Shown here: positions 44,068 to 47,881 of the stretch, piece by piece | How the letters are laid out: each line of letters starts with the position of its first letter | Numbering within the stretch: position 1 is the first letter of the stretch | Source of the DNA: an uncultured Saprospiraceae bacterium | GTDB lineage: Bacteria > Bacteroidota > Bacteroidia > Chitinophagales > Saprospiraceae | Direction of reading: 5' to 3' | Length of the DNA: 64,000 nucleotides | Assembly: GCA_937959275.1 (NCBI GenBank) | Contig: CALGLU010000021.1 | Span: 62,001-126,000 of the forward strand | Position numbers and translations under genes: made by a program | Notes under the pieces: model-generated | What the model was told of the DNA's origin: nothing | The model's input: the letters and a program-made list of their open reading frames with translations, nothing else | The model's database searches: none

Positions 44068-44898
44068 ATGAGTAAGAAGAGAGTATTGTTCGTAACACAG
44101 GAAATGAATCCTTATACGACCATATCTGATATTTCAGAAATGGTTGCCAAGCTGCCTCAGTCTACACAGGAGAAAGGTATGGAAATTCGAGTACTAATGC
44201 CAAAATATGGTGTTATTAATGAGAGAAGACACAGGTTGCATGAGGTTGTCCGATTGTCAGGTATGAATATCATCGTTGATGACGACGATTTTCCATTAAT
44301 CATAAAAGTAGCCTCGCTTCCTGGTTCTAGATTACAGGTTTATTTTTTAGACAATGAGGAATTTTTTAAGCGCAAGTTTATTTTTGATGATGAAGATGAA
44401 AAACCGTTTGAAGACAATATGGATCGGATGGTTTTCTTTTGCAAAGGTGTGATGGAGACGGTTAAGAAATTCGGCTGGCCGCCAGATTTGATTCACTGTC
44501 ATGGCTGGATGACGAGTCTAGTTCCTCTCTATCTGAAGTCAGTGTATAAGGACGAACCAATCTTTGCACAATCAAAGTTAATATACTCTGCATATAGCAA
44601 TGACTATGAAGATTCCTTTGGCGATAGCTTTTTTGTAAAAGCTCTAATCAATAATTTAGAGGTCTCTCAGTTAGATGCATACAAGCATGAAGGAAAAATA
44701 AGTTTGAATGCAGGTGCAATAACTTATGCTGACGCCGTTATACAAGGGAGCGGAAAATTGAAGAAAAACGTTCTTGATTTGATAGAGTCATCTGACGTTC
44801 CAAAATTGCCAGTTTTGGCGAAAGAAGAATACATGGAGGCTTATATTGAATTTTATCAATCATTGATGCCAATTGAAGAGACAGACAATCCTGAATAG
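44068..44898 (+). CDS. Short glycogen/starch synthase (GT5 N-terminal domain)
   Basis: 276 residues from ATG 44068. It corresponds to the N-terminal Rossmann domain of GT5 glycogen synthases: KRVLFVTQEMNPYTTISDIS, LMPKYGVINERRHRLHEVVR, DLIHCHGWMTSLVPLYLK. It lacks the C-terminal ADP-glucose-binding domain, and KxGGL is changed. This short form is normal in Bacteroidota, where it precedes a DUF4270 gene and glmS, so it is not a truncation. Catalytic activity is doubtful. An upstream TTG (44035) in the promoter is not the start. Confidence 0.85.
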   Translation: MSKKRVLFVTQEMNPYTTISDISEMVAKLPQSTQEKGMEIRVLMPKYGVINERRHRLHEVVRLSGMNIIVDDDDFPLIIKVASLPGSRLQVYFLDNEEFFKRKFIFDDEDEKPFEDNMDRMVFFCKGVMETVKKFGWPPDLIHCHGWMTSLVPLYLKSVYKDEPIFAQSKLIYSAYSNDYEDSFGDSFFVKALINNLEVSQLDAYKHEGKISLNAGAITYADAVIQGSGKLKKNVLDLIESSDVPKLPVLAKEEYMEAYIEFYQSLMPIEETDNPE

Positions 44899-44917: not shown

Positions 44918-46297
44918 ATGGCAATATCATGCTGGTGTTGCCTCTTTTCCATTATTATTTTAATGAGCAGTTGCGGAGACACGACCCTAGTTGGCTCAGA
45001 TTTATTTGGAGAAGAATCACTAAATGTAACTAGCACTGATACCGTAACCATAAAGGCCAAAACGGTTCCACTGGATTCCATACGTGTGTTTAATGTTGAA
45101 AATGTCAGCAGATCGACATTTTTAATAGGAGTCATTGATGATCCTGTATTTGGTAAAACAACGGCTTCTTTGGTTGCAGATGTCCATTTTGGTGTAGATC
45201 TCAATTCTGGACAATTATTCAAACCAGGTTATCAGGAGGGCGATATTTTGGATTCCATGATCTTATTGTTAGAAATCGATAGTGCTGGTCTCTATGGAGA
45301 CTTGAATACGACATACGATATCGAAGTCTTTCAACTAACAGAGAGTCTTAGATCATTTTCAGATATCTATTCCAATCAGGATTTCAGTTTTGATCCTGAT
45401 CCAATAGCTAGTCGAGAGAATGTTCGAATCTCATTAGACTCTTTATCGCTCTATTACCCATCTTTGGGGACGACTAGACGAGAGAAGGCGCAAATAAGAA
45501 TTCCATTGGGAGAGGCTGTGTCTAGTTTCTTATTTGAAGACTTAAGAGCGATTGAAACAAATGAGGATTTTATTCAAGAATTTTATGGTATTCGTGTCGA
45601 AGCGACGCCTTCAAATGACAATGCCATGTTTGGTGTCAATATCGCATCAAACTTTTTCAATAGTAGAATACAAAGCTATTTTAGTCGAGCTGATACGACT
45701 CTACTCTTTGAATATCCGTTAAATGACTTAACGACGAATACTAATTTGGGTAGAAAATTTTCAGACATTGAGCTGGATAATTCTTCAGCCATGATCAGTG
45801 ATTTCTTTGGAGACGAATCGGCAGGAGATAGTTTGCTATTTGTTCAATCATTATTAGGGACAAATGTTGAATTGGATTTTTCATCCATTATTAATAATGA
45901 CTTTTTAATCAATCAGGCAATATTAGAAATGACAGTCGCGGTCCTACCAGAAGATGATCTCGAATTAAATCCGCCTATTGATCTATTGGTATTATCCACA
46001 ATAGGAGATGATGGAGAGCTCGATATCATAGCGGAGATCTCGGAGGGATTAGTATTTAATCAACTCGATATCTATTTTGGAGGAGAAGTAGAGCAGAATG
46101 TAGTGAATGATAGGAATATGTTTCAGTATCAGATGAACATTACAAGATCTCTTATTGAAATATCCAATGGCAATTTGCCAGATAAACTCATTGTAACGCC
46201 ATTGTCAAGAAATGAAAGTGCTAAACGAACCATTATATATGGTCCCGGGCATGCTGAATTTCCTTTAAAATTGACCTTGTCCGTAACAAGCTTATAA
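44918..46297 (+). CDS. DUF4270 lipoprotein
   Basis: 459 residues from ATG 44918 (MAISCWCCLFSIIILMSSCG), with the lipobox Cys at residue 19. A longer frame from 44873 overlaps the previous gene and spoils the signal. The body is beta-rich, with family phrases STFLIGVIDDPVFGKTTASL, DSMILLLEIDS and FYGIRVEATPSNDN. Function of DUF4270 is unknown; conserved linkage to glycogen synthase-like and glmS genes hints at a role in envelope sugar metabolism. Confidence 0.88.
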   Translation: MAISCWCCLFSIIILMSSCGDTTLVGSDLFGEESLNVTSTDTVTIKAKTVPLDSIRVFNVENVSRSTFLIGVIDDPVFGKTTASLVADVHFGVDLNSGQLFKPGYQEGDILDSMILLLEIDSAGLYGDLNTTYDIEVFQLTESLRSFSDIYSNQDFSFDPDPIASRENVRISLDSLSLYYPSLGTTRREKAQIRIPLGEAVSSFLFEDLRAIETNEDFIQEFYGIRVEATPSNDNAMFGVNIASNFFNSRIQSYFSRADTTLLFEYPLNDLTTNTNLGRKFSDIELDNSSAMISDFFGDESAGDSLLFVQSLLGTNVELDFSSIINNDFLINQAILEMTVAVLPEDDLELNPPIDLLVLSTIGDDGELDIIAEISEGLVFNQLDIYFGGEVEQNVVNDRNMFQYQMNITRSLIEISNGNLPDKLIVTPLSRNESAKRTIIYGPGHAEFPLKLTLSVTSL

Positions 46298-46331
46298 ATT
46301 AACTGAGTAAGATATATAGGTGCGAACATGA

Positions 46332-46601
46332 CGATTGTTCTACAATCTGTACCAAATAAAGGCCAGAAACGCAAAAGTTTTGGTAGTTGTGACAAAAGAT
46401 CAGGAAGAATTGAAAAAAATTGCTGACTTTTGCATCGAAATTCCCGATATCGAGGAAGAATTATCCCCACTTTTATCGGTTATACCTACACAATTATTGG
46501 CTTAAAAATCGCAATGTTTAGAGCTTGTAATTTTAACAACCAAAAATTTAGAAAAATCAGTCACTGTAGAATTTGACAGTGAATTTAAAAAGATATTATG
46601 A
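46332..46601 (+). pseudogene. glmS: Relic of the glmS 3' end (GlmS C-terminus)
   Basis: Reading from about 46332 gives NLYQIKARNAKVLVVVTKDQ, then EELKKIADFCIEIPDIEEEL, SPLLSVIPTQLLA and a TAA at 46503. One base forward, YKIAMFRACN continues, and after a second indel near 46545, NLEKSVTVE. This is the known C-terminal sequence of glutamine-fructose-6-phosphate aminotransferase (LLAYxIAxxRGxNVDxPRNLAKSVTVE). Only about 85 of some 610 codons remain. The final frame ends in ATGA, overlapping the DUF4290 start as an intact operon would. In Bacteroidota glmS usually follows DUF4270, so this is the original place. Confidence 0.88.
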
Positions 46602-47260
46602 CTAATCATGAACCACATTTAATGCAGTACAACTCCCAAAAAGGACTGCTATCGATTCCCGAGTATGGACGCAATGTCCAGAATATGATCGCCTACGCGA
46701 AAACGGTGGACGATCTAGAAAAACGACAACGGATCGTGGAAGGGGTTATCAAATTGATGATGCAAATGAATCCGCACAATAAGAATTTAGCGGATTACAA
46801 ACAACGATTGTGGAAGCACTTATTTCACATTGCAGATTATGATTTGGAAGTACAAGTTCCAGAAGGCATAATTATTACCAGAAAAGAAGAGGACCTTAAA
46901 CCTGAGCCCATGGGCTATCCAGCGTATGAGACTCGATATCGACACTATGGCCATCAAGTGCAAATCCTAATCAAGAAGGCCATCGAAATGGAGGATGAGG
47001 AGAAAAAAGCAGAATTCGTCAGAGTGATTGCAGCTTATATGAAACTTGCCTATAGGACGTGGAATCAAAATGCAAACATCAATGACAATATCATCAAGTC
47101 TGATCTGAAAGAAATTTCTGATAAGCAACTTGAAATGAGTCCGGATGAACCAATTAATTACTTGGCATCGTCCTATACAAAACCTAAGCGCCCGCCGCAA
47201 AACACTAGATCAAATAATAATAGAGGTAAAAAGAAACAATACAAAAAGAAAAGACGTTAG
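46598..47260 (+). CDS. DUF4290 family protein
   Basis: 220 residues. Start MTNHEPHLMQYNSQKGLLSI; family phrases PEYGRNVQNMIAYAKTVDDL, NPHNKNLADYKQRLWKHLFH and PAYETRYRHYGHQV. Helical, cytoplasmic, with a basic Asn/Lys/Arg-rich C-terminal tail (RGKKKQYKKKRR) that may bind nucleic acid. Function unknown; restricted to Bacteroidota. Its ATG overlaps the fossil glmS frame by four bases. Confidence 0.9.
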   Translation: MTNHEPHLMQYNSQKGLLSIPEYGRNVQNMIAYAKTVDDLEKRQRIVEGVIKLMMQMNPHNKNLADYKQRLWKHLFHIADYDLEVQVPEGIIITRKEEDLKPEPMGYPAYETRYRHYGHQVQILIKKAIEMEDEEKKAEFVRVIAAYMKLAYRTWNQNANINDNIIKSDLKEISDKQLEMSPDEPINYLASSYTKPKRPPQNTRSNNNRGKKKQYKKKRR

Positions 47261-47276
47261 TGCCCCTGTAGAAAAC

Positions 47277-47881
47277 ATGCCTTCGTTGGACTCCGATCCC
47301 AAAAACATGCCCTTGTTGGACTCCGATCCAACGAGATTTGATATGTTACAATGCCGTTGGTTCGGCACCCATCAGTGGCTTTGGTTCTTTGAAAAGATGC
47401 CCTCGTTGGACTCTGATCCAACGAGATTTAGTAGGTTACAATGCCGTTGGTTCGGAGACCAACAGCGGCTTGGGTTCTTTTTGAATTATAGAAAAGATGG
47501 CCTCGTTGGACTCTGATCCAATGAGATTTAAAATGTTACAGTGCCGTTGGTTCGGAGACCAACAGCGGCTTGGGTTCTTTTTGAATTATAGAAAAGATGG
47601 CCTCGTTGGACTCTGATCCAATGAGATTTAATATGTTACAGTGCCGTTGGTTCGGAGACCAACAGCGGCTTGGGTTCTTTGAAAAGATGCCCTTGTTGGA
47701 CTCCGATCCAACGAGCTTTAATATGTTACAGTGCCGTTGGTTCGGAGACCAACAGCGGCTTGGGTTCTTTTTGAATTATAGAAAAAAACATGCCCTCGTT
47801 AAACTCCTATCCGTCGAGATTTAGTAGGTTACAATGCCGTTGGTTCGGAGACTAACAGCGGCTTTGATTTTCCTATTCATT
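47277..47881. repeat. Tandem array of double-hairpin units (six full, one partial)
   Basis: Units start near 47306, 47397, 47496, 47596, 47686 and 47789, with a partial one at 47277. Each has two hairpins: CTCGTTGGA/TCCAACGAG, and GCCGTTGGT/ACCAACAGCGGC, followed by TTGGGTTCTTT. Unit length is about 90 or 100 bases depending on the presence of TTGAATTATA. First and last units are most diverged, the central ones nearly identical. The last unit ends at the stop of the convergent hydrolase gene. There are no unique spacers, so this is not a CRISPR. Confidence 0.9.

Follow-up and report, generated by a model that had tools for sequence, protein, structure and literature searches.

A glmS pseudogene in its ancestral slot in a Saprospiraceae genome, with amino-sugar salvage as a candidate explanation of the tolerated loss

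The gene glmS is normally essential, and the locus described here raises the question of whether it has been lost in place and, if so, from where the cell obtains its glucosamine-6-phosphate. The window, i.e. the whole 64-kb stretch of DNA that was analysed, belongs to the genome designated G000. It is compared below with two congeners, G001, which carries an intact glmS, and the sister species G002, and with a wider set of family genomes.

The relic and its surroundings

The sequence between the DUF4270 and DUF4290 genes (Table 1) is a true glmS pseudogene. The TIGR01135 (glmS) model matches window 46335-46571 with its positions 528-607, at 40 bits and a genome-wide E of 6.2e-10, the matched stretch being interrupted by one TAA. 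A tblastn search of a small set of loci with the intact G001 glmS recovers residues 535-615 at 46332-46571 (63% identity, E 4e-22). When the relic is aligned with G001 and G002, one base is seen to be missing near 46505 and two bases near 46540, and the glmS stop codon has disappeared. The similarity is thus significant, the gene carries disabling changes and its neighbours are those of the intact orthologue; its 40 bits lie far below the TIGR01135 cut-off of 418 bits expected of a full-length GlmS (~610 aa). The sequence-only reading of this locus, which had proposed a glmS fossil lost in place with at least two indels, next to glycogen synthase-like and DUF4270 genes, is borne out by the model and tblastn matches, by the intact glmS that relatives hold in this slot and by Pfam, which assigns Glyco_transf_5 and DUF4270 and adds DUF4290; the translated relic does match GlmS, as that reading had asked to be checked. 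Its estimate of ~85 remaining codons was right as to a C-terminal remnant, although about 81 codons align. The ATGA coupling to the next gene, said to be still present, is real in the letters of G000, but, judged by the intact gene of G001, it is not ancestral: the latter ends in TAA, followed by a 13-base gap before DUF4290, and the overlap in G000 exists because the glmS stop was lost and the frame reads through to the TGA inside the ATGA. Beside the scar, no significant remnant of the N-terminal part of glmS was detected (P 0.09 in G000 and 0.54 in G002, and 0.24 for a further relic in G106, described below).

Table 1. Features of the glmS slot and its flanks, in window coordinates
Feature	Position	Strand	Basis
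Glyco_transf_5 (starch synthase catalytic domain, PF08323) protein, left end of the conserved cluster	44068..44898	+	Pfam
DUF4270 (PF14092) protein, flanking the glmS slot on the left	44918..46297	+	Pfam
36 bases from the DUF4270 stop to the relic, putative scar site of a ~1.6-kb deletion	46298..46333	+	nucleotide alignment
glmS relic, C-terminal codons ~535-615, partly out of frame	46334..46572	+	TIGR01135, tblastn, nucleotide alignment
In-frame TAA within the relic, adjoining the 1-base deletion	46503..46505	+	translation, alignment
DUF4290 (PF14123) protein, flanking the glmS slot on the right	46598..47260	+	Pfam

An intact glmS adjoins DUF4290 in 11 of the 15 glmS-bearing relatives examined, comprising all eight of a first set and three of seven further genomes (G139, G109 and G203; it lies elsewhere in G104, G212, G217 and G201). 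DUF4270 stands on the other side of glmS in G001, G139, G109 and G203, and the loci of G003, G030 and G031 contain it too; it was not found at the threshold used in the locus of G007, and the flank check excluded G005, G006 and G008. Eight glmS-less genomes (G020, G026, G106, G118, G127, G142, G176 and G182) have DUF4270 and DUF4290 adjacent with no glmS between them, and in G158 the genes of the cluster are scattered. Just past DUF4290, about six tandem repeats of ~100 bases occupy window 47272-47864, where several relatives have murA; a MurA match was not found within the 64-kb window.

Absence of glmS in the genome and across the family

The 6.79-Mb, 144-contig assembly of G000, which is 97.6% complete (~2.4% may be missing), contains no second glmS, every other TIGR01135 match being partial. 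The gene has been lost rather than relocated. The genome search proposed with the sequence-only reading therefore went against its suggestion of relocation or replacement by another glmS, and, where it had foreseen either another copy or an external source of glucosamine, the copy is absent from the assembly and the external source is the favoured alternative, on the association with NagA and NagB presented below. The model scores over its cut-off in 14/14 control genomes, in 55/60 relatives and, with scoring limited to six candidates per genome, in 186 of 198 family genomes, which were at least 90% complete and taken out of a larger group. After rescoring, in 14 genomes, of all TIGR01135 candidates up to E 10, ten of the 198 lack glmS, spread over eight genera: G000, G020, G026, G106, G118, G127, G142, G158, G176 and G182. 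G002 (88% complete), with a relic in the slot and no glmS elsewhere, is additional to these ten. Two genomes in which glmS is cut by contig ends (G087 and G217) and one with an in-frame gap (G116, 596 bits when joined) were scored as glmS-bearing, and G050 (57% complete) was excluded. The absence in G158 could reflect an assembly gap, because its DUF4290 is nearly identical to that of the glmS-bearing G201. No prior account of glmS loss in Bacteroidota or Saprospiraceae was found among the matches listed, in a partial coverage of the literature. It was also observed that the glmS of G116 (L074/L087) lacks roughly model positions 273-431 within a 482-aa open frame, either by deletion or by assembly error.

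The deletion shared with a sister species and the conservation of the relic

G002 possesses a relic of the same glmS region in the same slot. The local nucleotide alignment with the intact gene starts at glmS nt 1605 in both genomes, which is the 37th base past the DUF4270 stop in G000 and the 38th in G002; this shared edge is based on one nucleotide alignment, and the protein-level matches start at different points (model position 528 in G000 against 545 in G002; tblastn residue 535 against 549). Upstream of this edge, the two sequences resemble each other weakly (P 0.03). In a three-gene tree, G000 and G002 group together as sisters to the exclusion of G001 (97% ultrafast bootstrap). The common nucleotide edge, together with this tree, suggests that both relics derive from one common deletion, which is probably older than the split between the two species. 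This relative order is what remains of the earlier description of the loss as a dated example, no date having been obtained. At the level of the family, a 23-genome, three-gene tree gives nine all-lost clades with a midpoint root or six Fitch changes under unrestricted parsimony, on a topology whose deep branches are weak (MurA is absent for G000 and G203 and partial for G118, and G158 and G201 are represented by DUF4290 only). A third and separate glmS relic is found in G106 (L120:9610-9859), outside the usual slot; by eye, a GAPDH-like gene lies two genes upstream of it, and a possible MCGFIA start is directly followed by a stop.

Deletion-born bacterial pseudogenes are ordinarily truncated, frameshifted remnants in conserved synteny, and the relic resembles them in each of these respects; it differs from them in that the gene is normally essential and that two species are unusually alike at its silent sites. 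The last 59 codons of the relic, in a hand-set alignment, are 83% identical between G000 and G002, and third positions are the same in 41/57 cases, against 37-55% in four neighbouring genes. Where both encode the same residue, 35/45 codons are identical and 20.1 would be expected, a value reached in 0/20000 simulations and in 0/1125 neighbour windows, the best neighbour window attaining 0.71 against 0.72 for the relic. The excess recurs between G002 and G001 (32/52 identical, 19.1 expected, P 1.5e-4; 0/1151 neighbour windows as high) and is weak between G000 and G001 (25/42 identical, 18.2 expected, P 0.02; 97/769 windows as high); all these baselines come from three to four neighbouring genes. 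Such conservation is odd because free decay since before the split should have led to a divergence at least equal to that of nearby silent sites. We regard the excess as an unexplained anomaly and as no proof. The three genomes are compatible either with a genus-specific function at the nucleotide level or with recent separate losses that happened to share an edge, silent sites changing slowly. It may be hypothesised that the 3' end of glmS had a second nucleotide-level role (e.g. as promoter, leader or small RNA for DUF4290), the deletion having stopped there and the tail having been kept by selection, a proposal that we consider unlikely. The idea that silent sites are constrained towards the 3' end of the gene in general was rejected, the observed/expected ratio being 0.99 over the last 60 codons of 35 intact genes from the family and order. 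A conserved RNA structure was likewise rejected: two stretches of the G000 relic have z of 0.36 and 0.07 against shuffles and two of G002 have z of -1.68 and -2.70, so that structure is not conserved. Rfam gave no match at E<=1 in 46200-46800 and none at the gathering score across the window, and a scan for TTTG / TANNTTTG, which we take to be the Bacteroidota-type promoter consensus, returned sites with two mismatches only, none of them convincing.

Sources of glucosamine-6-phosphate

The downstream route from glucosamine phosphate to UDP-GlcNAc is probably intact in G000, to judge from its gene content. A Bacteroidota-type GlmU is present (TIGR03991, 404 bits, over the cut-off), as are two full-length GlmM-like genes (187 and 181 bits), which score under the TIGR01455 cut-off, as do the GlmM-like genes in 14/14 genomes tested, glmS-bearing ones included. 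TIGR03991 is over its cut-off in 10/13 genomes; G176 has a 189-bit match below it, and the weak matches of G026 and G142, two glmS-less genomes of one genus, are a hint of a further rewired UDP-GlcNAc route. The loss of glmS is associated with genes of amino-sugar metabolism. A NagA match at E<1e-40 is present in 9/10 glmS-less genomes against 21/188 others of the family (Fisher P 1.2e-7, at a line chosen post hoc, after the match list had been inspected), and the association is weaker over the curated cut-off (5/10 against 16/188, P 0.0015); NagB over its cut-off is found in 10/10 against 94/188 (P 0.0013), all of these P values being optimistic because the genomes are akin to one another. 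For NagA and glmS, the tallies cover the best six or nine candidates per genome, with selected genomes rescored. The NagA of G000 reaches 232.5 bits against a cut-off of 225.65. The matches of G026, G106, G127 and G182 fall under this cut-off, three of the four at ~150 bits, and may act on another substrate. NagA cannot be a general compensator, because it was found neither in G158 nor in the 88%-complete G002, which carries the common deletion and in which a short NagB was not found either.

A fusion of NagB with a PIG-L domain, by contrast, is encoded in 11/11 glmS-less genomes (the ten and G002), where a single frame of 640-715 codons contains both the NagB and the HPDD motifs. The fusion of G000 scores 1028 bits with NF002557 and stands beside a sodium:solute symporter gene (L101), and that of G158 adjoins a GH20 hexosaminidase and a symporter. 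The motifs LDEY and GIGRxGHIGFNEP, presumably the catalytic motifs of NagB, are kept in all eleven, and every one of the 12 solved chains that the G000 fusion matches is named glucosamine-6-phosphate deaminase or isomerase.

We propose, as a moderately probable joint explanation, one ancestral deletion in the lineage of G000 and G002, no second glmS, and a loss tolerated through amino-sugar salvage. In the common ancestor, a single deletion would have removed roughly the first 534 codons of glmS, and the remaining ~81 codons would later have gained frameshifts and a stop in G000. Because GlmU and two GlmM-like genes were retained, glucosamine-6-phosphate would still be needed. N-acetylglucosamine (GlcNAc) from chitin, peptidoglycan or neighbouring organisms could be imported, phosphorylated and then de-acetylated to glucosamine-6-phosphate; NagA would carry out this last step, or possibly the PIG-L domain fused to NagB would. 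The cell would become dependent on GlcNAc. Akkermansia muciniphila is a direct precedent: it has no GlmS, it possesses NagB, its peptidoglycan still needs glucosamine-6-phosphate, and it requires GlcNAc or GalNAc (PMC5902328). The dependence demonstrated in that organism is here predicted from genes. A relic remains in the slot in G000, whereas none is described in the available part of the Akkermansia account (PMC5902328); here, moreover, a congener keeps glmS and the absence recurs in eight genera of one family. A missing or limited GlmS is also bypassed by GlcNAc, via glucosamine-6-phosphate, in a deletion mutant of S. mutans, which does not grow without GlcNAc (PMC3306399), and in B. subtilis, where NagA supplies glucosamine-6-phosphate from GlcNAc (PMC6171935); these are laboratory strains, whereas the losses described here are natural and fixed. 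Counter to salvage via NagA is the retention of glmS by the 21 other genomes with a NagA match.

An external amino-sugar source is the most likely reading, on the strength of the NagA/NagB association, and its main rival is a self-sufficient cell in which NagB, as the fusion or as the short protein, runs backward and aminates fructose-6-phosphate with ammonia, which we hold to be possible but rather unlikely. The fusion is the only candidate shared by all the glmS-less genomes, G002 and G158 included, and its intact motifs and the names of its structural matches are in keeping with this activity. Amination has been obtained in vitro at saturating, non-physiological conditions, but Amuc-NagB formed no glucosamine-6-phosphate under physiological conditions (PMC5902328). 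The S. mutans glmS mutant needs GlcNAc even though it keeps nagB, which is a weak point against reverse NagB and says little about it, because NagB was undetected there without GlcNAc (PMC3306399). Further arguments against it are that 94 of the 188 glmS-bearing genomes also have NagB over the cut-off and that Asp replaces the Glu of the fusion in the short NagB of G000 and G026 (GHIAFNDP).

It is very improbable that glucosamine-6-phosphate is made by an unrelated enzyme missed by the glmS, nagB and nagA models. The weak SIS-domain matches, such as G000 C25 of 294 aa, would be candidates for it and the weak GlmU matches of G026 and G142 would fit a rewired route, but the G000 SIS match spans only model positions 333-441, and comparable matches exist in glmS-bearing genomes. 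We give still less credence to an intact glmS that is present in the species and absent from the assembly: the number of contigs and the completeness of the latter leave room for such a gap, and contig ends did cut glmS in two other genomes, but the relic occupies the ancestral slot within a 142.8-kb contig, the sister G002 likewise has a relic in the slot and no glmS elsewhere in its 88%-complete assembly, and the slot is empty in eight other genomes without glmS.

If amino-sugar salvage is the true explanation, these bacteria would need GlcNAc in culture. The absence of glmS in eight genera, the relic, a congener with the gene and genera of mixed state constitute a natural series on the loss of an essential gene. 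Several gene neighbourhoods can be added to this description. The short NagB of G000 belongs to a run (L102:2820-9549) of two Gfo/Idh genes, NagA, an ankyrin gene, an Nramp-family gene and NagB itself. This kind of run may serve a substrate other than GlcNAc. A comparable one in G026 (L104:3373-9146) contains Gfo/Idh-like genes (by resemblance only), a NagA-like gene, an Nramp-family transporter and the short NagB. In G106 (L137:3203-7164), a Bacteroidota-type GlmU gene lies one gene away from the gene of the NagB-PIG-L fusion.
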